Origin: Saccoglossus kowalevskii
Lineage: Eukaryota > Hemichordata > Enteropneusta > Harrimaniidae
Assembly (NCBI RefSeq): GCF_000003605.2
Contig: NW_003147271.1
Span: 4,558-68,557 of the forward strand
Direction: 5' to 3'
DNA length: 64,000 nucleotides
Under the pieces are notes generated by a model, which saw nothing but the letters and a program-made list of their open reading frames with translations, ran no database searches and was not told the DNA's origin. A program made the translations under genes and the position numbers. Position 1 is the stretch's first letter, and every line of letters starts with the position of its first letter. Shown piece after piece: positions 5,919 through 55,082 of this stretch.

Positions 5919-6230
5919 CTATGACTGCGTAGCTGACTGTGTTGCTACTATTAAACTTGGCTGCTCTACTGGCGTTTTTGACTGTGTTGCTGTCGATTGC
6001 ATTTGGGGCTGCTGTTGAGCTGGATTTGTTGGTGGCTGCTGCTGCTGCTGCTGCTGCTGCTGTACCGGCCCTGGGGTTTGTTGAGCAGTTACCACTTGTA
6101 CCTGTTGCTGTCGTAGCAATGTATTTTCCTTCTCCAGTTGAGAGTTCCTCTCCAACAGTTCCTTTATTTGCTCCTTCAGTACTTCTACTTCTTCTCTCAC
6201 AGCATACATAAGGTGACTTTTCACAAGGTC
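5919..6230 (-). CDS. TSC22D1: TSC22 common last exon: TSC box, leucine zipper, Gln-rich tail
   Basis: The acceptor CATAG precedes GAC, and reading starts in phase 0 with [20 protein letters not shown]. This is the second half of the TSC box and one of the best-conserved stretches of the family. It continues into a short zipper (heptad-spaced leucines in [17 protein letters not shown]). The C-terminal ~60 residues are disordered: [10 protein letters not shown], nine consecutive glutamines all written CAG (6036-6062), a [11 protein letters not shown] stretch and a Ser/Thr/Gln end (ATQSATQS) with TAG at 5919. The pure CAG tract may vary in length between individuals. The exon holds 103 residues plus stop. 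Confidence 0.96.
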
Positions 6231-9200
6231 CTATGTCAATGCAAGCAAATTAACAATTAGATAAGTGTTGTCTCAAATATTTCATTTCTTATTAAAAATG
6301 AATAATGAAGAGTTAATAGTGATGTGACAAATCAAGCAGAACATTAGTTAGTATAATACAAAAAATAAAATAATAAAGCGCCCAATAACAGTTTATTTAA
6401 TATTTTGAACAAATTTTGAATACCTGTCTAACGGGAAATAATTGTCACATCACAATGTAGATTAATTTGTTTGAGGAATTGAATCGACAAAATCAATTAC
6501 AAGAAGATATTTTCAATGCCATGCCAATTAGCTATGTCCTTGTATGGTCATTGCATTGACCACAGCCCCTTCGTCCCTCAATAACAAGTTCAATAAAGCA
6601 TTGAGAGCGAGTACTCGACAAACAACATTGAATGGAATTCCACATCCTTGCAAACAAGGTTACCAGAGGACACTGACCGGGCAAAATCACAAAATGATGC
6701 AAACTGTATACGAAAGATGGACGTGGGTGTCATTCATTAATAAGAAATAAATTAGTTTTAATAATGCATGTAATGAAAGAATAATAATACGACTGAAGTT
6801 ATAATGAATGAGAGAAGCTAATTCATCAATGAGCGTTGTATACACACAAAACATCCCTACATTCATTTCATTTGGGATGTTCCAGACTTTGTACACACTG
6901 AATGTAGACACTGTTGAATTATTGATATACTTTAGTCACTAGTATTTTTTGTTATTTTTGCATCATTCCAGCTAAATCATCAATACATTTATCACCTATG
7001 TTCACTGCTTCATTGTCTATTACATGCCCAACATCCTACTGCAGCCCTAGCCAATCTTTTCAAAACAATGGACAGGAAAATTACTTTTTTTCAGTGGCAT
7101 ACATGTATATACAATACATGTTGGGTGGGGTGGGGTGTGGTGGTGTGGCCCATAGAAGTTTATCAAAACTAGACAATGCATAATGTCAATATTATTACTT
7201 TAATGAATTTTTAATAAATTTATTCATAATACTGTAGGCCTCTGGCCTCAAGGTATACTCATGTAATTACAGAGGACAATGTCATTTTACAGTGACTGAA
7301 AAAGAACAAGAAAATATGAAAAGAACATGAACTGTCAGCCCAAAATAATTGTATTACGTTTTTTTGTGGAGATAAAAATAAATTTAGAAATATCACGCAA
7401 GATTACTGCATTTTGTAATTGTAATTGTAATAGCGATATAAATTTTTCGGGTGAGGGGAGTGTATAATAATAACTTGGGATGTATTTAGATCTCAACTCT
7501 TGGTGAAACGGACAGATAATGCAAAAATGGTACTCGTCCTCTACACAATTGGTATTACATAAAACACAAACTTTCTGTGCGTGTATTATGGAATTTTCTA
7601 TCAGTTTCAATACGTAGACAATGGGCAGAAATTCTTAAGCGACACAATATTATTATATTATTATTATTAAGTATGGACTCATAAAATATAGCTTCTAAGT
7701 GGTGGGTAATTATCTGTTTTCACAGTGACTCACTGATGATCATCTGGTATTTGTGAATTATGAATAAAGCACAGCATGAATGCAATGTGCACAGGTTATA
7801 AAGGAAAGAAATGGATTTTGTAGCTACTGGTAATACAACATTACTGTAGGCGTCATTCCAGAATCTTTCTCAAAAAATGAGCACGAATGATTACCAAGTA
7901 ATATCAATAATATAATTGTCAAAATCCAAGTCAATTAAGTGTTTGTTTTTCAGAAATGATTCTCTAATGCTGTACACGATAATTGACATTTAATTTTTTT
8001 TACAAAGCTTTTATTTCCTTTTATTCAAATGAATTTGATTAATTGCAAAATGTACATATAATTCATTTTGTGTTCACTTCTAATACTATAATCAGACCAC
8101 ACATTACGTGGATGTACATGCATGTACACAATGGCGTATTGAAGTAGCTGAAATAATATAGGCTGGTGGTACATAAGTGGGATTTTTAAGACATTGGTCA
8201 TGAATTTATTTTTAGAGGAAAGTTATAAACCACAGTGGCCGTCTGTTGGCTGCCTGATTGAGACAGGGATAAAATATCAAAGGGGAAAATATACATATGC
8301 GTAATAAAGCTAAAAATACCACCATATAAACAAGTTATTTTTAGATAGCCAGGAAAACAAGTTGTTGCGCAGGCAATGACGGTTGAAAATGCTTAGTATA
8401 TGACGTCAACAACAGCCAACTTTGACGTCCTGCTATGCAATCAACAGAAATGCAAGTTCTATTAATCTTTACAAAACTGTAAAATCCTCATTTTAATGTA
8501 TATGCCCTTCCTTAAGGACACCTTTTACTGTGAAAGGTTTAATTATTCACTGGGTTTTAATTTTGTTTATTTCGCTGACTGGAAAATGCGCTAAATTAAA
8601 ACCCAGTGAATATATAAAATTTAGCATACTACACATTATCTAAATGATAAAACCGTGAATTTAAAACCCACTGAATATGCCTGAAATGGTAAATCAGCGA
8701 AATTTAAACCCAGTGAAAATTATTCATTTTACAGTATCTAAAGGGACAGACAATTGAATTGGGAGGAGGGCTGGGAGTTAAGTTAGGGTCAGGGGTACAA
8801 AAAGAATTCTTTCCAATATATATATATATAAATGATTTGCACAGGAGTTTTATCATCTGCCATCTAAGAATTGGTAATTGTTAACCAAAAGTCCCAATAT
8901 AAACAATGCTTGAAACCAAATCATGATTACCAGACTATAAAGCATGATGCATTTGCAATCAAGTTTTTGTCAAAAATGCTAAAAATACAATAAATCGTTT
9001 AAAAAAATATGCAATATTAGCTAACAATTAACACAAAAAGCGAGACTGCAGCAAACACCAATAAAAAATGGAATAAATCAATGTGTTTGAAGGTTGACAC
9101 TGATTATACCCATCCATGGTTGCATGCATGGTACTGAGATAGCAGGGTCATAAAATACAACATTACATAATTTAACACATGCACACAAGATTACATAACC

Positions 9201-12200
9201 CTTTTAAAAGGTAGAGAATAAAAACAAGAATTATAGACAGTAGATTGAATCAGTATCAATCCTATTCACAATTAAATTGTCTTCCTTTTCAGCACCACAA
9301 ACAGTTAATGAGCTTGAATGTCATGTGTCAATATGTTTGTTTACATAACTGTCAACAAACACAGCATAAAAAGCATGTAAATTTAAATGGCATGATAGAA
9401 ATGAAATCTACAATACTCACCATAGCTTGTTCAATTTTATTATCAATCGCTCCCACGCTAGCACCTGAAGCACTGCAAAGAAGATCAGAGAAATTCCATT
9501 TTAGCAATTTTTCCAAAGCCGTAGCCAGTTCATATTTTTCTGGCTTTCGAGCAGCATTCTCTATAGTTTTCTTCTCATGTTTGAGAGAGCTACGTCTGGT
9601 TTTGGTGGCTGCCGCCGTTGATAGTTTTCCCATTGACAAGGAGGAAATGAAAATTGTAATAATTTCCCTGTTGAATATATGCTGTGTAACTGTAATGGTA
9701 AACAGTACTACTGCAATTGCAGTGAGATGTGCAGCGAGTTAATCAGGTCAGTATGTTCATTTGGAATATCACATATGTTGTACAGGTCAACGGCTGTCAG
9801 GATGTCAACAAATTGCAAGGACAGGGAGGGATTACATCCAAAGGGTGACTGAATTCAGTTGCCGCCTGAACTGTGAATGACATCAGGTTGAAATCAACAT
9901 GGAAAATTCCAGAAAATGATAATGAGGTCCCAATCATTCAAAAGCCTATACATATGCAGATGAGGAATTCACTAAGGTGTGGCTCACCATGGTAACAATC
10001 AAAGGACTCAACCATTACATACACACAGGGAGGGGTTCAAGTTTGATTGGGAAAAGGGTACTTTTACCCATTTTTAAAAAAACACAGTGGAGGGGGTAAA
10101 CAAATATTGCTTAATTGTTTGCCATTTAATAGCAAATGAGATCCTGTAAAAAAAAAAAGAAGAAATAAACAGACAGCAAAAAAACTTATAGCAAAACGTG
10201 ACAAAAATGAGTGGGCGTATGATATGGGATGAAGAGAGTTGCAAACAGGAAATTACATCAAGTAAAATATACATCAATCTGATTAAAATCTGATGTAGTG
10301 TACGGGCTTTAATTATTTTGGCTATAAACTTATTTTAATTTTATTTTTTATTACTTTTGTTATTAATGCCCTTTTATTTTATTTTATTTTATTTTATTAT
10401 TTTACTTTGATTTTGATTTTGTGATTTTTTTAATTCCGCCCTACCTACATCTGAGCCGATGCCTATGTAACGAGATTTCAACGAGACCCACTATCGACGA
10501 TTTTAGTCAACGAATCACATACCTCCTTCTATAGCGCACATGATGAAGTCACCGGGCGGAGTTGGGTGGCAAACACACTCAAATAAAATGGCGGATTATA
10601 CCGACGTTAATATTGTGGCTCGAATGGTTCGACTTTAGATCGTTATTTTGCATAGTTATTCTGGGAGTGACGATTTTGTTTCCGCCGTTTCGACCGAACA
10701 CCAGTGTCTTTTTCCAGTCGCCTGCCCTGGAGACGGGTGATGTTTTGTTGAAGATCGNNNNNNNNNNNNNNNNNNNNNNNNNNNNNNNNNNNNNNNNNNN
10801 NNNNNNNNNNNNNNNNNNNNNNNNNNNNNNNNNNNNNNNNNNNNNNNNNGGTTGGCGAAGATGTATCTGGAAGTGTACACATTTGTTGGAAGTGAAAAAA
10901 ATATTCAATGTAATGACAAAAATTGTAAAATGCTGTGGAATTTCTTTTGCAAATAAAAATATACTAGCAATTTTCTATTAATGGTTTATTCAAGTGGGCA
11001 CAATATAATGTACAGAAAGATTGCCCGTAGAGTATCGCTACACTGAAGAGTAAGCAACCGACAGCCTGTATAAAAGGGGGGCTGTGATTGGCTGTTACTT
11101 ATGCGAGATTTGAACGGGACTTACATAGGCGTCGGATCAGATGTAGGTAGGGCAGAATTAAAAAAAAATCACAAAATCAAAATCAAAGTAAAATAATAAA
11201 ATAAAACGGCATTAATAACAAAAGTAATAAAAAAATAAAATTAAAATAAGTTTATAGCCACAATAATTAAAGCCCGTACACTACATCAGATTTTAATCAG
11301 ATTGAATATACATTAGAGAAACAAGTCACTTTGTCTTGAATTGAAACTGATGCACTTTTTATTAAAAGTTGTATTTATACAATTTTCGTTTCCTTTTCTG
11401 GTAATTAAACAAATGGATTTTTTGTTCCAAACATAGATGGGAAGTGTAGTACATATTATTCAAGGTGTCACTGAAAAGAAAATTACGAGTTGTTTTTTTT
11501 AAATTGCTTCAGACACAGCCAAATTCTGTTCATACAAGCCATGAACAAACAAGACAGAACACTTAGTAAATTCTCCCTTATTGAGAATTAATTTTAGACC
11601 AGACAGTGGAACTGACTATCTGATAACTATTTTAAAGCAGGGCAATAATAGTTTTAATCAATATTTAATTGCTTTAAATATGACGTGCCTTGACTTAGAT
11701 ATTGGCAGGTTATTTTTAGTTTGTTGGATCAAACATTACCATTTTATCTCCTCATTTGACTCAATAGAAGAGCCAAATAGTTTATGTAAATGTTACCCAA
11801 ATATATTCCATGTATAACCACGACGTTAAATTGAAGGAAATGCTTTCTCAGTATTCTATGAATACAAAATCAGAGATGGTACAGAATAAAATTAACTGAG
11901 GGGCATCTTGGTATTCTAATGTACAGTTATCTTGTTAAAACAACGTTCAGTAATTTCCTCAATAATCATAAAAGGCAATCAAACCAAGAGACTGTATGAC
12001 GTAGATGAGGAACCAGGTAGTAAGTACTGTAAAATCTGTATTAGAAACCGCGGCTTCTATTAAAATGGTACAATGCAATAGAGGGGATGTGGCTTCTATT
12101 AGAGCACCTACACATATGAGAAATGATGAATTTTTGGTTCTCAATTATTGAAAAAGAATGGGTGCGACTTTTATTAGGGATGCGGCTTCTAATACAGATT

Positions 12201-15200
12201 TTACGGTAATTTAAAAAGACATCCATCGTGTCCAAGCAGTAATTTAGTTTCCATCAATCGCAAAATGTGATTTAGTCCTGCAAAATGGACATATATGTTT
12301 ATGAATTTCAAAACTTCTATTTACAGATGCAACTCCATTCTGACAGAAACGAACTTTCAAAAAATGATGTGAAGTTCACATGTTTTAACTACTGCACACC
12401 ATGATCAGAAGCATCGATATAGTTTTTTTGCGACCGCTATTAATTTGTGTTACAAATCAAGTGAATCTTAATCCTTGAACAGCTTAAAATGCATTTAATT
12501 TTATCTTTGACTTGGACAAACAAAGTAATTGGATCAAATTTTGGCATTCTGTTTGTTGGAATTATTTCCATTGTTTGGATTTTGTCTGTGATATCTCTTA
12601 CAAGTTTTCCAGATAGATGAGAAATGACAGAATGTGTGCGGTAACATCCGCACATTGCATTTAATTTCCTCTTAGACTTGGACAAATAAAGTAATTGGAT
12701 GAAGATCAAACTTTGGCATTCTGTTTGTTGGAATTACTCCCATTGTTTGAATTTTGTCTGTGATATCTCTTACAAGTTTTTCAGATAGATGAGAAATGAC
12801 ACATTGCGTGCGGTAACATCCGGTGTCCTTTTTTTTTCAAACCACTAGGGGAATAACAAGTGAGTGAGAAGCAGTGATCAGATGGCATAGCAGAGGTTAT
12901 CTCAGTTTACTTAGTCCCCCATGGATACACAAACAGACAACTTTCCCTGAAATATTCAATATTCAACACACGTCTGCAGAAGTTTTTGTGATGAAACTCG
13001 CATCTCATTAGAGTGACGATGCAAAGATGACGATGCACGTAGTTCACGAACATTTTGAGATATTATCACATGAATAAAATACTGCATGAAATGATTTGAA
13101 GCCTTATCATGTACATACTAAATACATTCTCATCTCATAGTATTATTCATTTCTATATTCTATAACCACAATGTAAAAGCAATAAATATAGAATCTGTCT
13201 AAACTATACATCTTGAAATACTGTAAAATATTTTATTTTCGCTGAAGGGTGATTCAGTGGAAATAAAATCCAGCAAAAATACCTTTTCCTTAAATTTTAC
13301 TCATCAACAAAGTTTTTTCAGCGAAAAAAAAATATTTTACAGAATGGAATATAGAGTAATAGAAATTATTATAATGTGCAAATACAAAACACATACCAAA
13401 ATTATGCTTATATAAAATATTTCCAGTCCAAAAAGAATAAGGATATTGTCTATCAGTCCAAACAGTGGACATTGAAATTTTGTGTAAACAGCCTATTTTT
13501 CATAACAAATGACACCATTACTGATGCCCCAACTACCCTTTCAAGGTGTATTTTGAGAAACTTACAGCACAATTAAAATTATTAAAAAAAATTGTGTGGA
13601 TTTCTAGTATAATAATAAAGTAAATTTTTCTTTCATCAAAAATATTTTCACATTTTTCATTAAATAACAAGAGCGAGAGAGAGCGAGAGTGAGAGCGAGA
13701 GAATGTGGTTCAATCTGAAAAATGTACATTGTCGTGTTAAAAACCTTCAAAATAATTTCAGATTGTTTTTTTCTTTCACAGGCAAAGTAACATACTTGAT
13801 GCATGAATTGATAACATTGCAGTATCAGTAGTTATCATTTTACCAATCATTCACGAAAGGTAACAGCATGCATTTGTAAAAACCTTTGGGCAGGGAAAAA
13901 CACTGTGAAAGGGCGGAAGCTAGTTTTCAAATTTCCATAATTGGCAATACGGATACACACGTAATATGTTCATTAGTACACACTAATTTACCTTAAAGCT
14001 ATGGTCAATGTAAATTTAATACCTTTTAAATGACAATTTTCACACAATTGTAGCATTTCATCAAAATGCCCATAATCATAAAACTACATTGCGCGTGCAA
14101 CATTTTGTTATTAAATATTCATTATTTTAAATCGTTTATGAAAAAATGAATATGTTTCTCCCCAATCACAAATTTTGCAAGGGATCTGTAGCGATCTGAG
14201 GCTAAACTTCAGGTGTTTGGTTTTTAATTGACGCACTTAGAAAATAATGTGATGCCGACTTAAATTTAACTGAATTATTGATATTTAAAAATGAAATCCA
14301 TCAACTTGATGATGATGAATACCCCAAGAGGCACAAGATCCAGCATGACAAAAGTGGAATACTAAATACAAAAAAAAAAAAGCTTTTGCAATTCAAAATA
14401 CAAGACTTACTGATACGAAGACTGCCTTTGATAATTATACCAAGACATGAAGGGGCAGCAAAACATTGATCCTGGGGATGGAAAAGCCGGACTCCTCATA
14501 CATTAGATAAGCTGGCGACAACGGCATATGAACACTGACACCAAGTGTGAAACAGCGAATGGGACCCCTGACGATAATCAGTATGTCCGACAAAGCAGTC
14601 CGACAGTTTTTGCATATTGTCCAGCGGACCTACCTTTTGAAAATCAGAATCAGGGCTACCAAAGCAGGATCAACATCTTTTGGATTGTACAACGACAGTG
14701 GGCTATGGGGCTGACTCCCAGAATATCCATACGACTCCATGTCTGTTTTCAAGCTTCGGTAAACAAGTATGTGGTTTCCAGACTCGATAATAGGTATGAC
14801 AATGTGGTGAACATAACAGTAAGAAATGGACTAGCCGTCTAGCGATGACACGACAAAGTCCTCCAATTATATGTAACAGTTACATGTTTATGTCTGAATA
14901 AATTATTATTATCATCGCAGGAGGACTGCGCATATAATCTGTTGAATGGCAACACTCCAAGCAAGGACATCAGTCTCAATAATTCAAGGCTTAACGATAA
15001 GAAGATTCTACTGGGTTAACAACTAGTGACAACCTGATTTAACTGGAAAAACAAAGCAATTTCCATGTACAGCAACAGTCAGCACACATACGTGTGCTAA
15101 TATATCCACTGTAAAGCCACACGTACATGTAACATTTTCAGAATACTGCTTATATATCAGGGCCTCAAAATAACAAAACATCTTATAAGTCTGTTTTTTT

Positions 15201-22632: not shown

Positions 22633-22667
<35 letters not shown>

Positions 22668-25600: not shown

Positions 25601-28600
25601 CAGATTGTGGTAACAATGGTTCATTTTTTAGCAAATTTGTATTAATTATTATTCAAAATTATTATTCAATCACTCCAAAAAAATTGGTAGAAATTTGTAA
25701 AAATCTTAAAGCGAATTTAAATAAATACTACAAACGAGCAGAATCGCCATAAAGTGTACGCAAGGCACTACTGCTTAAAAACACATTTAGCAAAATGAAA
25801 TAGTCAAACCCGTATGTAGTGAAAAAATAAATATGGTAGAATAAATATTACAAGACTTTGATGTATTACAAGACTGAAGTTGTATAAAATACTGTGAGGT
25901 CCATCGATGAGGACAGAGATCAATGCAGCACACACTAACCTGAGATATTCATGATAAGACTGACTTCTTGATATTTTGTCTTGCGGCTGAGACATGTCAT
26001 AACTAAATCCTGAAAAGCTTGATCGATGGGGAGTCCTGTGGCCTGAACTCAAAAAATAACTATCTGAGTGCAGAACATACTCATAGTAGGAGCTGTTGCT
26101 GTTGCCAGAACTCAAAGTACGATTACGATGGCACATTTTAATGCTTTTGCTGCTGCTGTCGTCGTCGACACTGCTTGACATCAACATTTCTGTAGATAGT
26201 CTGTGCACTAGATAATCTGTGTGTAGATAGCCTGCGGAACAGTAGTGATATAATCTCGGACTCATCTCATCAGGTGGGGGTACGCATTTAAAGGTGCGAA
26301 TATTATTATTCACGCCATAAATCGTCTCAGGTATCACAGGCAAGGTGGTCATATCATCATCGTACGTCAAAGAATGACACACAGAATGGAAATGTTCCAC
26401 CTCTGTATCAATCCCTGCATCAGCAGAAATTTTAAGACTGATTCTCACTCTACACCAATCACCTAAACATATTGTCTTTATCGAGCAGGGTTAAGACCAG
26501 GTATTATTTACAGTGCACTGTTGATTAATGTATATCTGAACCCGAACTAGATATTTGTAACCTGCATATCGAAGACAGTCCAGAGTCAGTGGAGACTGCC
26601 AACATAATGGGAAGTATTCTTGAGTTACACCAACATTGTCAAACAGTAAAAAGGAGCATGGATGGTAAGAAAATATCACACACCAGCTGGATCAGATACT
26701 GTGACCCACGTCAAAGTCAGATCGTGATGATTGCTGGCATGTTTCACAATACCTTGTCACTTCATCTGTCAACTAGTCTTCGGCAGCACGTCCACACATT
26801 GAATTTAAAGGTCAACTACTACATGTATACCCACATGGGAAAATCAGAATCACAAAGTCAGGTCCAAGGTGTGAAGAATTGACAGTAAAAAAAAAATCTA
26901 CCGTTGACTTCTTTAGGTCTTTATAGTAACTTCAAATCAAGCTTCACATCCCATTCTTAAAAACATTAACTTCAAGATGGTATGGAACTCCAACTTCAAG
27001 TCAGTAGTTTAAAAACATACAGCAGTTTACTAGTACAATGTGTGAATTGACTAGCAGCATGAATAGGTGTATTCTAATGGGGCACACATTCAGTGAGTCA
27101 GTGTGTGAATTGGTGTCAGCTGTTCCGTTGACATACTGCACATACGTCACGCAAATACACCACCACAATTAACATCATGGAAAGGTAATTCAGGAATGCA
27201 AGAATTATCATTAAATCCTTCCGGTGAAAAACTGATAATACCGGTAGTCAAACTAAAGCCACTATTTTATATTCCTCATTTTATTTTTGACAAATTTTTA
27301 GGACAAATACGTTAAATTATTAATCCATGTAAACAAATATTAATGAATAATATCACATATTATTCAGTTCATTAGATATGTCAACTGTCTAATTTTATAA
27401 TTTATAATTGATAACTGATTCAGTATTTTGTTTGTCCACGCCATCCAAGCTAAAATTAACATTCAATCGCTACATATGGCGGAAGTACACTATTTGCACA
27501 ACACAAACAGATGGTAAGTATGTATATTAAAACATGCATATGACAAGTAAATATTTCCATATTGAATAACATGGTTATTAATTACAATTGCCATGTCTTA
27601 TTGTGATCAAACAAACAGAGCTGCAATCCAATCTTGTAAACATATTAAATAGGTTACTAGCCTCACAGTGAAACAAAAAAAAATATTTCAATAAAGTTTT
27701 TTTAATTTCTCTATTTTCACCAATAAGTAAAATTTGCCAAATTTAATTGAACATGTAAAATAACAATAAAAATTCATCAGTATACCTTTAATTATAAATG
27801 CCATTCTCTCAGTCAGATAACATTGTAAGACTGCCCTCTAGTGGCAGCATCAAATCTACTGATCACATGTACTTTTATCTCCCAGACACAGAGAAATTTG
27901 TTTTAAAAGAAATTAATCGTGACAAGATAAAAGGTTTAAGCTAAGTACACAAGGTAAAACATTCGCATGAAGAAAAAAAATCAGTAGAGTGCATACTGAT
28001 TGTTGAAAACAAAATCATTAATTAGTGGCTATTCCCATGCAGGCGTGCAAATTAAATTGAACTGAAATGGCAAAACAAAATGAAACGATCGATGAATTTT
28101 TAGGAAACAAGACTCTCTGGAACCCAGAAAATGAATACAACCTAGACAAATGTGTGAAATAGCTGAGAAGTGTTAAGTGGATCTGTGTTTTTTTATCTGG
28201 CTCATCAGATGAAATCTATATATATGTGCTGCAATTTGTCAGGTGTCAATGAGTGATTGTAGTAGATGCAACAACGTAGAACAGATCATGCATGAAAATG
28301 TTGTGATTCAGGGGCTGTAATGCTTGAGGAAACATTTGAAAGATTGGTTTAAAAGATGGGACAAAAAAAAATATATCAGTAGTAAACTGATCATTAACAA
28401 ATCTACTGGTCAATTTTGGGAGTTTGTGAATGCTTTACCAACTAAAGGTTTTATGGCACGAATGTCACAATGACTATCATAAAATTAAGTCAATCAAATT
28501 GCAAAATTTCCCAAAGCAAAAATTCACTGATTAGTTGAATCAAGTTTCAAAAATAATATACTATAGAATACTTTATTTTCGCTTGGAATTTATTTTCGCT

Positions 28601-40600: not shown

Positions 40601-43600
40601 ACATATGTAATTGTTTACCCAACTTACAAAAACCACTTAACCATAAAAAGGCAAAGCAAAAAGTGGAGAAATGAGGAATAGGAATAGAACTGTACTGGAA
40701 GTATCATCGCACGAATGTCCATTTGCATCATTATCTGAATACATACAAGATGGAAATTATCAACTCAACAGCTCAGCATGTCATTTTCCTCATATCAGAT
40801 CAGTTTACATTACAGTCACTTGAAACTAAATTAAGCATCAAAAAGAGTTAGTGACAAAGGGAGAATGTGATAAGTTTTATCATGCAATTTGATCTGATAA
40901 GTATTCCACTGTAAAGCACATGTATGGGCAAATAAGTGCGCATTCCGATAGTGTCAATGTTCATCAGCACCATAAATATTTTAACCTTTTAAACGACAAT
41001 TTTTTCCACCAACAATTAGGTACAACACTTTTGTATTTTTCAATATTAACTTTAATGTTAAGTTAGGAGTAAATGAATATGATATGATAATTACCATTGG
41101 CAAACAGGATTATGCTAAAAAATTTACTGATTTTTAGCTGATTTTGGTACTTAAAGGGATAACGAACATTTATCATACTCGTTCTGACATTTTACATCTT
41201 TCCAAAGCATTTAATTGTACAGCATTCATTTAAAACAGGGCAAATGTCAACTTTATAATTAACAATGTAAATCATCCCCCAGATTCCCAGGCAAGGGATA
41301 AAACTGTATTAAGACTACACAGATGTAACACATATACAATACATGTACAACAACAGAATAATCGCAACAAAAGTGGCACAGAACTCCCAGGGTATTATGG
41401 CATTGCTATTATAAGAGTCTACAGCAAGATCTACAATCCGATAACCATGACGAATGGGTCTAGGAAGATCATTAACATTAATGGTCTCATCTAAATCCAT
41501 GGCATGTAATATTAAATGAGGGCAAAACAACGCAAGTCACCTTTGCAGCATTGATCAGAAATCATCTTTATTTTCAGTCTTTGATATCCACTACTCACAT
41601 ACAAAGGTCAAATATAGTGCATATATCCTATAGTCTAGGGTAGTGCAAGCACTAATGTAATCTTTTTTTTCAACATTTGTATTTTGTTTACTATAGCAAC
41701 CCTAGTCAGCGGACAGCTCAATTATTACAAATTTGCTATGTCAATACCAGCACATTACTGTAAAAAATTTAAAATTAAAAGTTGGAGAATAAAAATGCTT
41801 GTCCTAATTGATGATCTATCTGTCCCTAGCAAGATAAATTGACATATTATTTAAAATTCAATTTTAAAAAAGGCTCGCCATCATTCCAAAAATTTGTTGG
41901 ATATTAGCAACATTAGACTACCCCCATTTGGTCAGTGAGTAAAACTTGATATTTTATTAGCCTATCAAGAGGGACAGGTGATTTGTACATTTACCTGTAC
42001 TAGCTAAAATCTGCATGTCTTGGGACTGGCCTCAATTTCGACCCGGTATTTAGCATGTTTAAAATTATCACCAAGTAATAGGTGATTTTCCGTTCAACTG
42101 CGAGATCTTGCGAGATGCATGAAAGACGCGCGTCGAACGTCTGCCGCAAAAATCGAACGATTTGATTTTCAACTCAAATTTCTTTATTTCATAGCTCACA
42201 TCGACCGGCCGATCTTCGACAGAGGAATATTGCTTTCGAATACCCTCACTTAATCGAAATTGTCTATCATCAAATGTATACAGCACATTATTAAGCATGG
42301 AAATGCCCCCAAAATATGTTCGCGTTTGTAGAATCCCACGCGATGTTTGGCGCCACTACGACGCTATGACCTTTGTTTGTCCTGTTGTTACATTCGATTT
42401 CATGCATAACGCGTGATTCTCGCAGTGTATGGAAAATGGTCTATTGAATCTTTGACAGTGATGTTAAAAAAAATAATAATAAATTGCTCTAATTTGGTAT
42501 TGACACATTTAATGGATTTAAATACATTATTAATGATCCAACATCCCTGACCTACAAGCATACATACAAAGATAATCTGTCATCTGCTAGATTCATACAG
42601 TATAGCCTCACATCGAAACAAGCAAAGAAATGACTGCGAGATGAGGATTAATAGATGATTTTTCGTACACTGCAGAATCTCGCATACAGTGTGAAAAGCT
42701 GTACAGTGATGATTTGATTTTGAACTTGCATTTCTTTCTAGCCTACATGCAATAACCAAAGGCCGATCTTTCAGAAGGGAATATTACACGTACTCATAAC
42801 TCATTTAAGATACCTTTTCTGTTTTGTTTTTCCTTGTTCTCTTCTTTTTATTTTTATTTTATTATGCTTTTATGTCTTGCCATTTTGAATGTATATGAAA
42901 CGTTATTGTATTTTATAATCTAGATCCTAAACAGGGTATGATTTCAATAAAGACATTTATTATTATAACTTCATCAAGAGTGACTATCATCAAATGTGTA
43001 TAGCACATACATGTACATGAAAATACCCCAAAATACTTTTTTATGTTTGTCAACTCACATATGTTTGACATTCGATTTTACTGATAAAACAAGATCTCAC
43101 AGTTAATGGAATAAAAACTTTTCGCGTGTGAGGGGGTGTACAAAATGTCAAGCTGAACAACTTGACTATTCTAGTCAGTAACACATGTATACAGCCACCA
43201 TAAATTACTGTGTATACCATGCCGTACTGAATTGCAATAAACTAAAATCCATTATAAAGAAGCTGCTGTTGTCTGACCTTTAAACAGATCATTGAGGTAA
43301 AAGGGTAAAAATAACTATATTGTTTAAAATATTTGAGAAATCCGTTTCGAGCACAGTGAACAATATTTAAATGATATTATGGTTCCCATAGAAACTCATC
43401 ATTATCTGTTATATTGTTGTTAATGACCATACCTCAATACGGAGACAAAAACAGAAATGTCAGCTTTTTTTGTCATTGTTGCTGTGCAAAATAAATTATG
43501 CTATGAGGAAGCCCCAGATTTTTTTTTTAAAGGAATGCCACAAACTGCCACATCAGGTATAATGCATGGTGTCAATATTAATGATAGCTACATGAATAAT

Positions 43601-46600
43601 GTAGGTTTGTTATAAACATATCCATATTGAAGAGAGAAATAGTTAATAGAATATAGAAATAGAATAGTTCTTACTATAAAAAACAAGCAGCTGCTCGGCA
43701 GAGATAGCTCTGCTTTTAGCAATGCACATTTCAATTAAAGAATTGAAGATATCACCACGAAATGAACAAATCTGATAGAGGTCTGCCTGTAGTACCTATA
43801 TGTATACCGGTAATATCAAAGCAATCAGATTTGCAGTTTTTAACAAGAAGTTAAAAATATAACTTTTTACTAAAAATATTCATTAAGATTAGAGAATTGA
43901 AGATATCATCAAGATATGAACAAATCTACTGGTAAGTGATGTCTACCCAAGGTATCAAAAGCAATCAGGCTTGTATTTTTTTAAGAAAATGTCGAAACAG
44001 TAAAAAGTTGATGCGGACCACAGTGACGACGGCGGACAACAACAGACAATCACTTGTATGATAAGCTCCACCCGACAAAGTCAACAGCGGGGCTAAAAAT
44101 ATACTGTTGTAAATTGTGCCCAATAATTTATGGGCAAAATAAGTCGTATGTATTTTAATGGTTCAGTATACAGCAGATTTTTTGTTTCTTTGTGCTTCTA
44201 CATAAGCTGTTCACATATTAAAACGGATAAAGAATTGATTTGAAACTACACCTTTATAACAACATGTCTAATATTTGGACTATAATCAATCAGAGTGAAA
44301 TAAAATAAATCACCCCAGAATTCCATGGAAACTTTATAGTGAGAGTAAAGACTACACTAATATTTAAACTGGGTGTACCAAACTTGACAAAAACTGATTG
44401 TAGTATTGCCAAGTCGCCTGATAACGCAATGCTATCCACATAAATTTTATTTAGGCGACATGTGGGATGAACTAAGAGGCAAGAGATTTTGGAATGATTT
44501 TAACTAACATGCAATCAACACCCCCCCCCTCCCCAAATTCGGTAACACAAATTCCTTAGTTAAAGACGACCACATGTTACATGTATATTCACTGAAACAC
44601 AAAACAGATTTGAGGAAAAGAAAATGTACATGATAGACCAATTTTGAATTCCCCGGTTGTTGTGCGCCAGTGTTGATGTGACAGAACCTACGATGTCACA
44701 AAATTAAATTTTGTCCTGCTTAAAGGGCAGTGGTCGCCATGTAGCAAGTGTTCAAATTTCATGTAAACAATGAATTTTACATGCATTGTATACGTCGCTA
44801 TGAATCTCATATCGAACATCAGCCTGACGACCAGCACCCTTTAAATATGTGTACAAACAAAATAAAGGTACTTTATATTAGGTTACTAAAGCAACCTGGA
44901 TGTACACGCCACAACATCTTCAATACAAAAACTGAAGTTTGTATAATAACAATTTGCCTAAAACTGCTTTACGAGATTGCAATTGTCATGCACATGGTAA
45001 CCAAGCAACAAGAGCACCCAAAACATGGTTATTTATGATCATAATAAGTTTCTAGTAGGAACACAAACCCACACATTTGCTAGTTCATTGTAGGTATTAT
45101 GAGACGAACATAAATTCTGTGACATCTTGAAAAATGCATGAAGATAAAGAATCATCATATGCAAATGAGGTTGATAATCGGCCAATATAATTTGTTAAGA
45201 GCACTGTTTATTTCTGCAGTATGTACAATAAAGCTCAATATCTTACAGACCTAATTTGTCTGCTGTCAATACTGTATATGAGGACACCTAGAGAGATGAA
45301 GTATCAATAAAATCTCAGACATTGCACAGAGACTGAGAGGCATTGTAGGGGAAAACACAAAACTCGACTCATCATACATTCCAGTCACAGTTCACAATCA
45401 GATCAATTTTCAGGAAACCAGCGAAAACTGCGCTATAAAATCTCTAAATGTATCGGGAAGCTCAAGAAAAATAGCTTGAAAAAATCTGAAGTGATTTGAA
45501 AGCTTGTTACCTCAAGGTCTGTTTATCAATAACTGGAAATTGAGGAAGCATGACAGAATTGTAGATTGACAAAAATGTAAAAGGGGCTAAGCAAACAACC
45601 TGATAACATAATGGAGACAGCAGCCCCATTCCCACTGGTGCACTAGATCCGACGTGGGAACGGTCAGTTCGCTGAGAAAGCTGGTCCAACTGGGCATGAG
45701 CTGACTTTTGAAAGGAGGAATATACACCAACACCCAGCAAATATGGTGATTGAAATTATACTGGTACTTAAGAAATTTTTCAAATTTATGTTCATATCTG
45801 AAGTTATATTTTGCAGTAGTAATTAAACAATTTCACATTGATTTTCATAAAACGTCCACTGACCACTGAATTTTTGGCATTTGTCAACTTTCAAAACGAT
45901 GCCATGTTCATAAAAATATCTGTTCTACTTCCCATCAGGACTTGACATCAGCACGTTGACTAAATCCCCTTCCTTGCGTGAACGTTGCATCAATGTTCTG
46001 TACACGATACAGCATGTACGCACAGATTTGAGAAAGCTCAATCATGCTTATGAATGGTACCGGTACTCTGTACTGGCAGATGTACATATGTAGATATGTG
46101 TCAAGTGTAAACACAATTTGTTTTTAGAACAGGCTCGCATTTCACGTGGATCATCACTGTTAATAATGATATCATGCACCAAACAAGATATGAACAGGCA
46201 TCTTGTGCTTATATCTACCGGTATCTATGAGTAATGTACAAAAAAAGGTCAAAGTGATGAATGAATTGAGAGGAAATGTTATAAAACAATCTACAGGGTT
46301 TTTCTAGAAAAGAACTGCAATTTAGTGGTGCCACCAAGCGGGGGAAGATAGGGTTCTGCCTACCAAGGTGTGGAGTTTCGGATAATTCTAAGTTAAAGTG
46401 GAGCATTCTATGGCTTCCTTTCTTCCTTAGAAACAATTAGTTTTTCCTACAGGGCCTGAACTTCAGAATTGAGAATGCACCAATTTCCACAAATGCTTTG
46501 GTATTATTGAAACTTTGAGGTACAAATATAAGGGTACCAGCCTTCTTAAATTCTCAGCTGTGAGGCTGCTAGGCATGATTGTCCTAAGCAAATTTGGTAC

Positions 46601-52600: not shown

Positions 52601-55082
52601 CCAGAATTCCTTTAAAAAAAAATCATGCAATAACACTTGGGATATTAATAATAATGAATAACCCAAAACTACCATCCAATATGGTGCCATAGGGAGTTAT
52701 TTATAATTGTAATACTAGTGATACGTTTGATGGGCGTGTCAAGTTACTGCATCACATTTTAATGGCATATAATTTGATACATAAATTGTATTATTATAGA
52801 TTATGCAATATAAATGGTCTAATTATAACTTTGTAACAGTACCGGTAGTACAGTTATTAGTTTTTTTCATAGTTATTATTTAAAACATCAAAATTGAAGC
52901 CCCTGATCATCATCTAAATCACAGCACACAGAATGGCTGACAACTCCCACCAACTGATCAATTATTATTTTTTCCAACATTTTTGCAGGCCCCTTCTGAT
53001 GAAACATGACATATTTTGTAGATAATTCATTACTTTTAATGAGTTAGGTAACACTATACCAGTAATAGTTCTAGACAACAATGCACTTTTTTTTGCAGTG
53101 ACCGTCAAGGTCAATATTGTACTAGAAAATTCCATTTTTCAACAAACATGTTTATTAATAATTATACTGGTAAACATGTTATGACAATAACATTTCAAAG
53201 AGTAAATGAAAGAGGCAACATGGGAATTCCCTGGTAACCTAATGCATCTGGTGTGTCAATACAAATATTCACAATTAGTTTTCTCTATAAATAGATCACA
53301 AATTATCAACAGTGAGAATGATTACATCATATTGCTCACACAGAGTTACAAGTTAATTATTATGTTATAGTTTCTGGTGTAAAGCTTTATCTTCCTGTAT
53401 AAGTATTTGACAACTAAGAATAGGACAGTTCAGAGTTTGTATTTGCACACAGGATGTTGCCACATTCACACCACGACTGTTGTACAATTTGGTGCTGTAA
53501 AGCCTACTACTCCGCATTCTACTACTACATTACCTATTCAGATATTACTGTGGAAAACCACTGACTGAAACGAGAATTTAATAATTATAAAGGAATAAGA
53601 TTAATAACTACCACTTATCTATATCTTATATCGGTTGGTCCTATGGCCCCAACTGCTTTCAACTATTTTTAGTTTAATTAAACATGGGTTAATATATTTC
53701 CAGGTTTTACCATCTGGGGGTCAATGTACATTTTTTAAGACAAGATTCAACTAGTTCATGTTGTGCAAGATCAGAGATAAACCATTAGATTAATTAATGC
53801 ATCACAAATTGCCTGTGACAAATGGTGACCAAGTACAATAATATTATCTGCATTCAGACGTAGTGCACTGTAAGAAAATCACAAGTGATCCCAACTAGAC
53901 ATTATCCCCAGACCAACAAGTCAGATTAAACTGCCACTGTTTCTCTGTCCTCTAAGCTCTACCATGAGAAAGAGAATTCTGCACTTTAATTTAACCAGAA
54001 AGTCTGACGGACAATGGTTAGAATATTTTAAGACATGGATATGATTGTTATTATTCAAATTTTAGACATGATTACAACCATATTGGGAAGCCACACTTAG
54101 TTAGAATTCCTCACCTGCATTGGACGATGTTTTATAATATAAATAATAGTGTACACTACCTGTCCTCGCCTTCTGACTGGCCATCTGTTGATGGGGCTCC
54201 AGAAGACATGTCATTGACATTCAGCGTATCTCTGATATGCTCCATCATAGAAAGGGAACTATAATCAGTAAGCCCTGGGAGAGTGGAAGCAGGCTGTGAC
54301 TGTGTTACCGATGACTGCACAGCCTCCTGTCCCTGATTCTGATTCCCACCTTGAGGTTGTGCATTGTTCTGTCCTGTGTTTTGCTGTGATGTTGGTATGT
54401 TTTGTTGGTTTTGCTGTGGGGTCGGATTCTGAGTTGGCGTGCTTGAATTTGTAGATTTCACCTGTGGCTGTATATTGGTAGTTGGTTGTTCACTTACAGG
54501 CAAAACTACAGGGTTTTCTGTAATTGCATCCTGACCGGCAGTGTAATGAACCGAACTTGCTGCACTAGAATTTCCAGAACCCGGCTCTATCTCAACGGTT
54601 CTTTCCGGAACATTAATGGTTTCAACTTTTGGCTCTTTTGGTTTCTCAGCTGGGTCCAAGAAATCAGTACAAGTCCACCTACCCCGTTTGATCGGCTCCG
54701 TTGTTTCAATTTTAACAACTCGAAACCTGGAGGGACCGTTTCCCTGGTTGTTGCCATTGACAGTCGGTGGTAAGGTTTCCTTAATAATTTCCGGAGACAT
54801 GAGATCTTCGTTTGATTGGTCGAGATCTTGTGATGTGTTTTTGGACATGTCAAGTAAGTCAGAGGACACATCCTCTGCGTGACTTTCGTCGAGTTCATCC
54901 ATACTTTCAGCATCATCATTGTTGGTGTTCTCCGACACCTTGACACTTGTTATTTGGAAGCAACTCTTCTTCTTTTGGCTAGCAGCGGTACCTGTTAGGT
55001 AAAGCTGTGAGCTTTCATCACCACCTACATCCATCGCATGTTTGTCCGCCATTATTTCTTCCTGTAAACCACCCTCTGCCAT
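5919..55082 (-). CDS. TSC22D1: TSC22-domain family protein, long isoform (three coding exons, alternative first exons)
   Basis: The long isoform joins exon 54160-55082, exon 9421-9472 and exon 5919-6230 into a predicted 428-residue protein. The N-terminal exon has the two long-isoform boxes ([11 protein letters not shown] at residues 37-47; SRFRVVKIE at 118-126 followed by [11 protein letters not shown] at 133-143). The shared exons give the TSC box ([17 protein letters not shown], then [19 protein letters not shown]) and a leucine zipper. Family knowledge: these are non-canonical zipper proteins that dimerise. Long forms (bunched-A, TSC22D1.1, D2, D4) promote growth and partner NRBP/Madm and WNK-pathway proteins; short forms act on transcription and can antagonise them. 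Frame, phase and splice sites agree at every junction. The ~45 kb first intron holds alternative first exons. Naming D1 rather than D2 or D4 is a convention, because invertebrates usually have one gene. The family identification is near certain. Confidence 0.95.
6036..6062 (-). repeat. Pure (CAG)9 tract inside the TSC22 coding exon
   Basis: Nine uninterrupted CTG on the plus strand are read as CAG on the coding strand and encode nine glutamines. Uninterrupted triplets inside a coding exon are candidates for length polymorphism. Confidence 0.95.
7190..7645 (-). mobile_element. Short 3' fragment of a LINE
   Basis: The minus-strand frame at 7610-7335 reads [30 protein letters not shown], the same C-terminal zinc-knuckle-like region as the element at 1-790 but from a different copy. 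It is followed by the typical end [17 protein letters not shown]. Just upstream, in another frame, is [12 protein letters not shown], so there is one frameshift. The 3' UTR runs down to about 7190 with an AATAAA near the end. Nearly all of the element is missing, as usual for 5'-truncated copies. Confidence 0.8.
8401..8408. promoter_or_regulatory. Perfect palindromic CRE (TGACGTCA) in the last TSC22 intron
   Basis: The full 8-bp CREB/ATF site occurs at 8401-8408, with a half-site (TGACGTCC) about 22 bp further on. Function is unknown. Confidence 0.3.
8528..8734. mobile_element. MITE family B copy with TA target duplication
   Basis: The 207-bp element starts CTGTGAAAGGTTTAATTATT and ends ATTATTCATTTTACAG, with CACTGGGTTTTAATTTTG and complementary AAACCCAGTG blocks. 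TA flanks both ends. It is very similar to the copy at 16030-16239. Confidence 0.85.
9421..9472 (-). CDS. TSC22D1: TSC22 common exon 2 (52 nt), N-terminal half of the TSC box
   Basis: The exon encodes (S)[17 protein letters not shown]. It is preceded by a pyrimidine-rich tract and TTTGCAG acceptor and followed by the donor ATG|GTGAGT. It needs two bases from the previous exon; AG + T makes Ser with every candidate first exon in this window. The sequence is nearly identical to the vertebrate equivalent ([18 protein letters not shown]). The longer open frame around it (9352-9639) is intron read-through and not coding. Confidence 0.95.
10274..11305. mobile_element. Long-TIR non-autonomous DNA transposon with 7-bp target duplication
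   Basis: The ends are near-identical inverted repeats of about 190 bp, starting TCAATCTGATTAAAATCTG. They are flanked on both sides by ATATACA (10267-10273 and 11306-11312), a perfect 7-bp duplication. The interior (about 10490-11090) is much more GC-rich and gene-like than the AT-rich arms, and includes the assembly gap 10758-10849. A small open frame starts ATGGCGGATTATACCGACG at 10588 and stops after 16 codons. An AATAAA occurs near 10956. No transposase is visible. The 7-bp duplication and arms do not fix the superfamily. Confidence 0.85.
10758..10849. other. Assembly gap (92 N) inside the long-TIR transposon
   Basis: Unknown bases lie in the GC-rich interior of the element at 10274-11305. 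Frames crossing it are artefacts. Confidence 0.99.
12027..12206. mobile_element. MITE family C copy with TA target duplication
   Basis: The 180-bp element starts CTGTAAAATCTGTATTAGAA and ends TTCTAATACAGATTTTACGG, with GCGGCTTCTATTA blocks near both ends and flanking TA. This is the most intact family C copy here. Confidence 0.85.
12491..12826. repeat. Two-copy 166-bp tandem duplication
   Basis: Both units start GCATTTAATTT (12491, 12657) and share GACTTGGACAAA, TTGTCTGTGATATCTCTTAC and GTGCGGTAACATCCG. They differ by roughly one base in ten. Confidence 0.85.
13221..13342. mobile_element. MITE family A copy (short)
   Basis: The termini CTGTAAAATATTTTATTTTCG and the complementary TATTTTACAG enclose a palindromic body with GCTGAA/TTCAGC blocks. 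TA lies on the left side; the right flank is degraded. Confidence 0.75.
13668..13705. repeat. GA-rich simple repeat
   Basis: AGCGAGAGAGAGCGAGAGTG and similar units form an imperfect purine tract. Confidence 0.9.
14634..14740 (-). CDS. TSC22D1: Candidate alternative first exon of TSC22, short isoform (35 codons + AG)
   Basis: This exon is too short for ordinary ORF lists. The ATG at 14740 (context GACATGG, good) opens [20 protein letters not shown] and the exon ends [14 protein letters not shown] at the donor GTAGGT. The next triplet is TAG, so the frame closes right at the splice site and in phase 2. Joined to the common exons it gives a 156-residue protein, close to GILZ and short TSC22 (about 137-144). 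The N-terminus has a Ser/Tyr/Pro-rich start and a hydrophobic end. The frame is open for about 30 codons upstream of the ATG. Local GC is higher than in flanking intron. It is the last start before the common exon, about 5.2 kb upstream of it, a usual place for the short-isoform promoter. Confidence 0.65.
15417..15615. mobile_element. MITE family A copy with TA target duplication
   Basis: This 199-bp element runs from CTGTGAAATACTTTATTTTC to AAATAAAGTATTTTACAG. It is flanked by TA on both sides, and the two halves are mutual inverted repeats. Confidence 0.85.
15932..16331. mobile_element. MITE family C copy interrupted by a family B MITE
   Basis: Family C arms (TGTAAAATCTGTATTAGAAG ... GGCTTCTAAAATACATATTA) lie on either side of the family B element at 16030-16239. 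Removing that insert leaves about 190 bp, the length of the intact family C copy at 12027-12206. Confidence 0.8.
16030..16239. mobile_element. MITE family B copy nested in a family C MITE
   Basis: The 210-bp element from CTGTAAAAGAATTAATTATT to GTAGTCATTTTACAG has TA on both sides and closely matches 8528-8734. It sits inside the family C element, so it is the younger of the two. Confidence 0.85.
16973..17100. repeat. Two-copy 70-bp tandem duplication
   Basis: GCAGACTTTA.GAGGTATACC and AAACTGAAACTCAGGCAGT recur 70 bp apart (16973, 17043). Confidence 0.85.
17403..17484. mobile_element. MITE family C, right half only
   Basis: From TTTTTGGTTCTCAATTGTTC to TAATACAGATTTTACGG it matches the right half of the copy at 12027-12206. 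The left half is missing. Confidence 0.75.
18740..18800. mobile_element. MITE family D fragment
   Basis: GAAATTGAACGTAAAAACAG followed by AACAAAGGTCA matches the left part of family D. It borders the dispersed repeat at 18810-19170. Confidence 0.5.
18810..19170. repeat. Diverged copies of the AGTCCCCGTT-element internal unit
   Basis: It shares TTGTGTTCAATGTATGTACC, TTGATCAGTCCAAGCGTGTC and ATGACGTGCATTGCATGG with the units at 38.1-38.9 kb. It has no hairpin ends of its own. Confidence 0.6.
20231..20861. mobile_element. Hairpin-ended repeat element (AGTCCCCGTT ends)
   Basis: The element starts AGTCCCCGTT and ends in a hairpin at 20827-20861 whose arms are AGTCCCCGTT and AACGGGGACT. The interior consists of diverged copies of a unit with AAAATGGCCGCCATTCGGC, GTGAAGTTTGA and AGATACAGGTCCAGACA. 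Further unit-like sequence continues to about 21045 and ends in CCCCCATTTCGGACTAG. No target duplication is evident. Confidence 0.65.
22062..22297. mobile_element. MITE family D copy with internal deletion
   Basis: CATTTTCTGGTTACTGCGAG and GAACATAAAAACAGAACAAA at one end and CGTCTTTCACGCAACTCAC at the other match family D, but the central part (~150 bp) is missing. Confidence 0.7.
22628..22663 (+). repeat. Poly(A) run
   Basis: A run of about 36 A has no clear retroposon body before it. Confidence 0.9.
23779..23805. repeat. Perfect 11-bp stem hairpin
   Basis: GTACACATTTC and GAAATGTGTAC are separated by a 5-base loop. Confidence 0.85.
25940..26352 (-). CDS. TSC22D1: Alternative first exon of TSC22, intermediate isoform (137 codons + AG)
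   Basis: The first ATG in this open frame is at 26352 ([17 protein letters not shown]). The frame opens after a TAA about 45 codons further upstream. The exon ends ...[10 protein letters not shown] and meets a strong donor, CAG|GTTAGT, in phase 2, so it joins the common exon as YHEYL-SASGASV. The predicted protein is 258 residues. The N-terminal 137 residues are rich in Ser, Tyr, His and Asp, with [12 protein letters not shown] and [11 protein letters not shown] runs and no membrane segment. I do not recognise this N-terminus in vertebrate TSC22D proteins. GC content and codon variety are clearly above the surrounding intron, which supports coding. Open reading continues ~45 codons past the donor, so a read-through form cannot be excluded. 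Confidence 0.75.
27831..27846 (-). promoter_or_regulatory. CTCF-like core motif
   Basis: On the minus strand TGCCACTAGAGGGCAG matches the bilaterian CTCF core (CCASYAGRKGGC). It lies in the TSC22 intron just upstream of the alternative exon at 25940-26352. Occupancy cannot be judged from sequence. Confidence 0.4.
28561..28768. mobile_element. MITE family A copy with TA target duplication
   Basis: This is a 208-bp inverted-repeat element of the same family as 15417-15615 (TACTTTATTTTCGCTTGG at one end, CCAGCGAAAATAAAGTA at the other), flanked by TA. Confidence 0.85.
35260..35515. repeat. Diverged copy of the AGTCCCCGTT-element internal unit
   Basis: ATGTACCAAATTTGAACAAA, ACAAAATGGCTGCCAGTCAG and a GACAGACAGACAGATGG tract match the unit seen at 20.5 kb and 38.5 kb. 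Confidence 0.6.
38044..39937. mobile_element. Hairpin-ended repeat element with internal ~310-bp tandem array, gap inside
   Basis: It begins CGTCCCCGTTC and ends in a hairpin at 39903-39937 (AGTCCCCGTT ... AACGGGGACT), as in the element at 20231-20861. Inside, the anchor GCATTTTCGGCCTTAAA recurs at 38204, 38511 and 38832, giving units of 307 and 321 bp. The array runs into the gap 38887-39766 and probably fills it. A (CACGGACG)-like minisatellite lies at 39848-39890. Confidence 0.7.
38887..39766. other. Assembly gap (880 N) in a tandem array
   Basis: Unknown bases lie between tandem repeat units. The long open frames predicted across it are artefacts of N. Confidence 0.99.
41315..41500 (-). 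CDS. Possible small single-pass membrane protein (61 aa) in the TSC22 intron
   Basis: The ATG at 41500 has an excellent context (GCCATGG). The frame reads 61 codons to TAG with varied codons and no low-complexity bias. The N-terminal ~38 residues are polar and acidic ([20 protein letters not shown]). The C-terminal ~20 residues form one clear hydrophobic segment ([20 protein letters not shown]), which would suit a tail-anchored or small integral membrane protein. I recognise no family. It is on the same strand as TSC22, within its first intron, with no obvious promoter. An ORF this short can occur by chance in 64 kb. It could also be one exon of a spliced product. Confidence 0.25.
   Translation of the reverse strand: MDLDETINVNDLPRPIRHGYRIVDLAVDSYNSNAIIPWEFCATFVAIILLLYMYCICVTSV
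42077..42445. mobile_element. MITE family D copy (GATTTTCCGT ends)
   Basis: The ends AATAGGTGATTTTCCGTTCA and the complement of AATAGACCATTTTCCATACA are inverted repeats about 35 bp long containing CTGCGAGA. The copy is in reverse orientation relative to 61476-61877, which it matches closely over its full length, implying recent activity. It carries an uninterrupted 76-codon minus-strand frame, only partly kept in other copies, so coding is doubtful. Confidence 0.8.
42640..43118. mobile_element. Old degenerate MITE family D copy, interrupted
   Basis: It is recognisable by ATTTTTCGTACACTGCAGAAT, GGCCGATCTTTCAGAAGGGA, CTATCATCAAATGTGTATAG and CAAGATCTCACAGTTAATGGA in the order of the intact copies. 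It is much more diverged and split by the retroposon tail at 42811-42966. Confidence 0.65.
42811..42966 (+). mobile_element. Retroposon 3' end (LINE or SINE tail) inside an older MITE
   Basis: This 156-bp insertion ends in AATAAAGACATTTATTATTAT and interrupts a degenerate copy of the GATTTTCCGT MITE family. It is flanked by AACTCATTTAAGA (42798-42810) and AACTTCATCAAGA (42967-42979), an imperfect 13-bp target duplication as expected for LINE-type insertion. Confidence 0.6.
44724..44840. mobile_element. MITE family E copy with TTAA target duplication
   Basis: The 117-bp element starts AGGGCAGTGGTCGCC and ends GACGACCAGCACCCT, flanked by TTAA at 44720-44723 and 44841-44844. TTAA targets are typical of piggyBac-type transposition. 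Confidence 0.75.
45511..45629 (-). CDS. TSC22D1: Candidate alternative first exon of TSC22, short isoform (39 codons + AG)
   Basis: An open frame begins after a TAA near 45756, runs through an ATG at 45629 (context GGGAATGG) and ends at 45511 in TTG-AG followed by the donor GTAACA. The next in-frame triplet after AGG is TAA, so the frame closes exactly at the splice site, in the phase 2 the common exon needs. The predicted N-terminus begins [20 protein letters not shown] and ends [11 protein letters not shown], then joins SASGASV. The CYQ...FTFLS pattern recalls the vertebrate short-isoform N-terminus (VYQL..FSISFLSSLLG), though the match is loose. The full product would be 160 residues, close to vertebrate short forms. 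The donor is acceptable but not strong. Upstream non-AUG codons could extend the product. Confidence 0.55.
47505..47562. mobile_element. MITE family C, left end only
   Basis: CTGTAAAATCTGTATTAGAA followed by GCTGCGGCTTCTATTA and AGTACAATGCAAT matches the left third of the family C element. The rest is absent. Confidence 0.7.
48234..48407. mobile_element. MITE family A copy with TA target duplication
   Basis: This 174-bp copy has near-perfect ends (CTGTAAAATACTTTATTTT / AAAATAAAGTATTTTACAG) and flanking TA on both sides. The ends look recent, although the interior differs from the other copies. Confidence 0.85.
50721..51003. repeat. Direct repeat, period about 191 bp
   Basis: GCCAGCAAAGTGCACATCAAC near 50724 and GCCAGCAAAATGCACATCAAC near 50915 are followed in both by a CCAGGATT and a TCAAGGACA block. 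Confidence 0.7.
51817..52140. repeat. Old direct repeat, period about 180 bp
   Basis: Both halves contain GATT..CTGCTGA or TGCTGATT, ATTGATTTT.GTAT.TC, TTAATTAATTA and TTATTTTGTTTAGA in the same order. Confidence 0.55.
54160..55082 (-). CDS. TSC22D1: TSC22 first exon of the long isoform (307 codons + 2 nt)
   Basis: The start ATG at 55082 sits in a good context (AAGATGG) and opens [20 protein letters not shown]. Residues 37-49 form the first conserved box and 118-143 the second. The second box contains RFRV (119-122), an RFxV-type motif known in other proteins to dock CCT domains of the SPAK/OSR1/WNK kind. Residues about 50-100 are acidic. Residues about 200-265 are Gln/Asn/Pro/Ser/Thr-rich and probably disordered. 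The last segment ([19 protein letters not shown]) looks more ordered. The exon ends GAC-AG and meets the donor GTAGTG, giving phase 2; reading on would stop at once (AGG TAG). There is no stop anywhere in the 923 nt. A stronger-looking donor (CAG|GTGAGG) lies 45 nt downstream, but using it would include the in-frame stop. Confidence 0.95.

Follow-up and report, generated by a model that had tools for sequence, protein, structure and literature searches.

A single TSC22 gene in the hemichordate Saccoglossus kowalevskii with a long motif-bearing first exon and a probable internal alternative first exon

Introduction

The Drosophila bunched (bun) locus is described as giving rise to at least six transcripts, in which distinct 5′ exons are joined to a common last exon, and overexpression of BunB and BunC is reported to antagonize BunA in the fly (PMC2253523). 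In the wider TSC22 family, the long forms are reported to carry R-phi motifs that the short forms lack (PMC12266109, PMC12266122), and the R-phi motifs of TSC22D2 and TSC22D4, RFRV and RWTC, to bind WNK1 CCTL1 and the CCT domain of NRBP1 (PMC12266122). Short forms are described as opposing long ones, with SPAK phosphorylation being lowered by TSC22D3.1 (PMC12266109). The production of long and short TSC22 isoforms by way of alternative first exons is already established for the family. Among the titles and opening parts of abstracts covered by a literature search, there was no report on invertebrate TSC22 first exons outside the fly.

The window analyzed here is a 64,000-nucleotide stretch of S. 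kowalevskii DNA (assembly GCF_000003605.2, contig NW_003147271.1, positions 4,558 to 68,557 of the forward strand), and all coordinates refer to it. It holds a single minus-strand TSC22 gene of the bunched type, an ordinary animal member of the family. Like Drosophila bunched, this is a single TSC22 locus with a long form carrying conserved N-terminal stretches, and distinct 5′ exons are placed onto a common 3′ part to give short forms, an arrangement that is predicted here and based on ESTs in the published account of the fly. The locus is also large, with a coding span of ~ 49 kb to set beside the 90 kb given for the fly locus (PMC2253523). Unlike bunched, the common part comprises two exons, one of 52 nt and a terminal one. 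The long product has the same RFRV, RWTC, and TSC22 domain as are described for the long forms of mammalian TSC22D1, TSC22D2, and TSC22D4 (PMC12266122), whereas a single match was found here in place of the four paralogous TSC22 genes of mammals. The candidate short products are, like TSC22D3/GILZ and L-GILZ, short TSC22 proteins.

Results

The exons and other features of the locus are collected in Table 1. The intron between the long first exon and exon 2 measures 44,687 nt and that between exon 2 and exon 3 measures 3,190 nt. The conceptual long product matched the Pfam TSC22 family (PF01166) with an E value of 2.3e-23 and 82.5 bits against a cut-off of 30, contained the TSC box and C-terminal leucine zipper by which the family is recognized, and resembled the solved DIP structure (PDB 1dip, E 7.3e-16). 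A search of 572,110,611 bases, in which 17 of 17 candidates were scored, returned exactly one TSC22 match at E ≤ 0.001, that at the present locus, in line, for an assembly that may be incomplete, with the one TSC22 locus per genome that characterizes a bunched-type gene. A sequence-only reading of this DNA had claimed one TSC22 gene whose first exon is long, and this claim is solid. No TSC22 relative was confirmed among 84 pattern matches in viral_contigs and 271 in genome_contigs, two sets that are without animal genomes by design, and tRNA and Rfam searches (gathering threshold) gave no match.

Table 1. Features of the TSC22 locus and candidate alternative starts (positions within the window).
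Feature	Position	Strand	Remarks
Terminal exon 3	5919..6230	-	Leucine zipper and last part of the TSC box; tail rich in Q and P; stop codon
Common exon 2	9421..9472	-	52 nt; with AG, about 17-18 residues
Open frame reaching upstream from exon 2 across the acceptor, doubtful start of an unspliced short N terminus	9475..9633	-	53 codons from ATG 9633
Short first exon, possible	14634..14740	-	35 codons; strong donor AAG/GTAGGT, score 10.25
Internal alternative first exon, probable	25940..26352	-	137 codons plus AG; donor GTTAGT
Second candidate exon of the sequence-only reading, most likely a chance ORF	45511..45629	-	Weaker donor GAG/GTAACA
Long first exon, coding part	54160..55082	-	307 codons plus AG, then donor
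RWTC, R-phi motif B	54669..54680	-	aa 135-138 of long exon; described as the NRBP1 CCT ligand (PMC12266122)
RFRV, R-phi motif A	54717..54728	-	aa 119-122 of long exon; described as a CCT-domain ligand in TSC22D2/D4 (PMC12266122)
Upstream ORF, presumed 5′ leader of long form	55112..55171	-	20 codons, stop excluded

Splice sites were scored with approximate tables. The acceptor of exon 2 reached 11.38, where the 99th percentile for 2,898 minus-strand AG sites is 9.4, and that of exon 3 reached 4.9, close to the 90th percentile. Exon 3 displayed a strong period-3 signal that was equalled by none of 775 null windows. Within the second intron, a minus-strand frame of 99 aa (7335-7634) resembled the zinc-binding end of reverse transcriptases below the threshold (E 0.049) and is possibly a LINE remnant.

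The long first exon ending at 54160 is practically certain. Its period-3 power was 9.49 against a null mean of 1.05 (0 of 235 null windows equal), and its GC content of 0.459 was reached by none of 1,848 intron windows. The exon encodes the hallmark of a long isoform, a conserved N-terminal region in which both RFRV and RWTC occur, and a further stretch of 11 residues was noted at aa 37-47. The letters of the two motifs are the same as those of the TSC22D2 and TSC22D4 motifs, and by analogy the long exon may encode a form that docks to WNK and NRBP1. CpG observed/expected (o/e) stood at 1.27 over the 500 bp preceding the exon vs a gene-body mean of 0.44 (382 windows). The upstream ORF in the presumed leader, MEVIMYDFDFVRWVTLSSFL, starts 89 nt before the long-form ATG, with an A at position -3 and a G at +4; it possibly acts in translational control. 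On the same strand, GCCATCTTG lies at 55294-55302, 220 nt before the long-form ATG and near the CpG boundary, and resembles a YY1-type promoter motif.

In the sequence-only reading, this gene had been given four candidate first exons, all spliced in the same phase to one acceptor. The letters bear out the junctions themselves. Four AG/GT donors are present with last exon bases at 54160, 45511, 25940, and 14634, the common acceptor lies at 9472, and exon 2 opens with T-GCT-TCA-GGT-GCT-AGC, so that AG plus T gives Ser and each of the four junctions reads Ser-Ala-Ser-Gly-Ala-Ser in frame. It is also correct that a stop directly follows AGG in three of the four cases, the triplets being TAG (54160), TAA (45511), TTA (25940), and TAG (14634). 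Neither property was accepted as evidence for the exons. The shared phase was the rule by which the exons had been picked, and in-phase junctions are therefore no evidence. The stop carries little weight because a phase-2 AG/GTAA or AG/GTAG necessarily reads AGG-TAA or AGG-TAG; in the interval from 9473 to 55082, 46 AG/GT donors have a score of 5 or more, the four just named among them, and 19 of the 46 have such a stop, and the probability of finding it in at least three of four is 0.19. The open codons counted from an ATG upstream of the donors number 307 for 54160, 39 for 45511 (13 from its second ATG), 137 for 25940, and 35 for 14634.

On the minus strand between 9473 and 55082, an interval that includes the long exon, 33 AG/GT sites were preceded by a phase-2 ORF with an ATG. 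Five of these combined at least 35 codons with a donor score of at least 5, namely the four proposed exons and a site at 17201. The plus strand of the same interval served as a control and held 34 sites, of which three fell in the class with at least 35 codons and a donor of at least 5 and none had at least 100 codons. When any dinucleotide was allowed at the junction (phase-2 ORF of at least 20 codons, donor at least 5), 17 minus-strand sites were found above 9473, and besides 54160 and 25940 nothing longer than 62 codons (46219) was among them.

The null for these ORFs was a set of 200 simulated order-3 Markov introns of 45 kb each, with thresholds placed at the observed values after the candidates had been seen; on these terms an ORF that had 39 or more codons and a donor of at least 6.5 was present in 45% of introns (mean 0.7 per intron), one of at least 35 codons with a donor of at least 10 in 9%, one of at least 100 codons with a donor of at least 5 in 4.5%, and one of at least 137 codons with a donor of at least 5 in 0 of 200, while ORFs of at least 35 codons with a donor of at least 5 averaged 1.6 per intron. 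Of the proposed four first exons, 54160 and 25940 stand above chance, 14634 is borderline, and 45511 is at chance.

The internal exon ending at 25940 is predicted, with good confidence, to be a real alternative first exon. Its frame is stop-free as far as 26490 (183 codons) and its donor scores 9.11. The GC content of 0.423 lies in the 0.4% tail of 2,002 windows and drops to 0.338 past the donor; the period-3 tail is 4.2% when taken over 411 nt and 1.2% for the open stretch of 549 nt, all tail figures given here and below being per test and uncorrected for the number of tests. Residue and codon content were at chance (35% tails, from just 17 null stretches) and the proposed reading frame did not outscore the two alternative ones. 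A Pfam search with the peptide gave no match at E ≤ 0.1. Several ATGs lie ahead of the 25940 start, as they do ahead of the 14634 start.

For 14634, the case is only suggestive, and on its sequence this candidate falls just short of an even chance of being a real first exon. The simulated introns gave a chance probability of 0.09 at thresholds set after the candidate had been seen, and the tails were 3.7% for residue content, 5.9% for codon content, 3.2% for GC, and 38% for period-3. That 45511 is a real first exon is improbable. An ORF of its length with its donor arose with a probability of 0.45 in the simulated introns, its tails were at chance for residue content (42%), codon content (38%), GC (22%), and period-3 (67%), and it was rejected as most likely a chance ORF. 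When vertebrate-type short first exons were sought with TSC22D1.2 and GILZ peptides as queries, no clear match was found in the window (best E 0.34).

A fifth start, absent from the sequence-only reading, could lie next to exon 2. Upstream of 9472 the frame is open for 88 codons, includes an ATG at 9633, and enters exon 2 without a change of frame, and it could be that a short TSC22 form is transcribed through the exon 2 acceptor from this ATG, although the start is considered doubtful. If it were real, the splice acceptor would itself be coding, and the same DNA would be intron in the long form and coding exon in the short form. Of 43,501 intron positions on the minus strand, 1.6% have an ATG-open run that is 53 codons or longer, and on the opposite strand the figure is 1.1%; at 100 acceptor-like sites, a run of this kind was present in the matching frame in one case and in any frame in six. 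The residue content of the extension exceeded that of 374 of 374 null stretches, codon content lay in the 1.6% tail, GC in the 5.5% tail, and period-3 was at chance (35% tail). The GC and period-3 results count against the start, as do a stop-free plus-strand frame of 175 aa (9215-9742) that lies antisense to both exon 2 and the extension, the low CpG upstream (given below), and twelve upstream ATGs within 500 nt of 9633, though none of these is within 100 nt. The peptide matched no Pfam family above cut-off. A very strong acceptor-like site (score 16.8, TTTTTTTTTTTACAG/GATCTC) was also observed on the minus strand at 10143, which is 510 nt upstream of ATG 9633; a short transcript might use it for a noncoding exon.

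CpG o/e was computed with repeats internal to the window masked and with repeats known solely from elsewhere in the genome left unmasked. Along the window, CpG is mostly depleted from 0 to 55 kb save in repeats, rises to 0.85-1.34 between 55 and 62 kb, and is depleted again up to 64 kb. The edge at 55 kb fits gene-body methylation, and the single large CpG step outside known repeats is that at the long exon, at ~ 55.2 kb. Over the 500 bp that precede the other candidate starts, CpG o/e was 0.45 for 25940 and 0.67 for 14634, both below the level of the long exon, 0.70 for 45511, and a low 0.17 for 9633. Windows centred on the exons fell at the 92nd percentile of the gene body for 25940, the 93rd for 14634, the 47th for 45511, and the 58th for 9633. 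The highest value among gene-body windows, 0.92, belongs to the one starting at 25400, immediately 3′ of the donor at 25940, and mildly favours the promoters proposed earlier; the top 20 also include windows at 14500 (0.76) and 13600-13900 (up to 0.81), together with an unrelated group at 31900-32300. The weaker rises by 25940 and 14634 would fit internal promoters but are not diagnostic of them.

Strong CpG peaks at 10.0, 38, and 42 kb were rejected as internal promoters since all overlap repeats. An element beside exon 2 (10274-11305) has 146-nt terminal inverted repeats that are 78% complementary, raised CpG, and an N gap at 10758-10849, and looks like a DNA transposon. A tandem array of 307 bp occupies 38133-38886 beside an N gap (38887-39766), with related single stretches at 19.0 and 20.6 kb. 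The segments 42077-42445 and 61476-61877 form an inverted dispersed repeat, 92-94% alike, that is CpG-normal within a CpG-poor gene body.

Discussion

From the exon sequences and motifs observed here we infer splicing, promoters, dimerization, and antagonism as parts of one reading, which is judged probable: the long exon would be spliced in phase 2 to exon 2 and the zipper exon, these two would be shared with one or more internal first exons (25940 and perhaps 14634) spliced in the same phase, and the motif-free internal forms would oppose the long form. The pattern R-[FWYLIVM]-x-[VIC] is absent from the four other candidate N termini (25940, 14634, 45511, and 9633), and forms starting at an internal exon would accordingly be without RFRV and RWTC while keeping the TSC box and zipper. 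By analogy with the family, such a short form may enter dimers with the long form, or compete with it for partners, and in this way could oppose it in WNK/NRBP1 signaling and growth control. Given that the R-phi motifs occur in the long exon and in none of the other candidate N termini, and given the published antagonism, the choice of first exon would then decide whether a dimer docks to the kinases.

One alternative interpretation is that the long form alone is real and that the three internal candidates are chance ORFs ahead of cryptic donors in a 45-kb intron. In its favour, the simulated introns average 0.7 and 1.6 ORFs in the two classes given above and the plus strand has three sites of the latter class; moreover, the strong internal CpG peaks are repeats and the residue and codon content of 25940 is at chance. 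This explanation is nevertheless judged unlikely, because an ORF such as that of 25940, with its 137 codons, 183 stop-free, and a donor of 9.11, was reached in 0 of 200 simulations, and because its GC and period-3 are raised. It could also be that the 25940 block is real but is an internal cassette entered from the long exon, and no first exon at all. An acceptor-like site of compatible phase at 26035 (score 7.86) makes phase 2 in and phase 2 out feasible; entry there would, however, keep only 32 of the 137 open codons, and from 25945 to 26700 the other two phase-compatible acceptor-like sites with a score of 3 or more reach 3.99 and 3.17, which leaves a cassette very unlikely.

The proposal of the sequence-only reading, that four real exons mark a nested set of four promoters, is highly improbable. 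The junctions are in frame at all four, and the CpG values upstream of 45511 and 14634 come close to 0.69, the 90th percentile for gene-body windows, but 45511 does not exceed chance in GC, in period-3, in residue or codon content, or in the length of its ORF combined with donor strength, and the sole large CpG step outside known repeats belongs to the long exon. An internal first exon at 25940, alongside the long exon, is the preferred reading.

If 25940, and perhaps 14634 or 9633, is a true start, then an animal with a single TSC22 gene would have both docking-competent long forms and motif-less short forms from one locus. The opposition between long and short forms would then become testable without paralogues. 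For the field, the established scheme would be extended, not changed.
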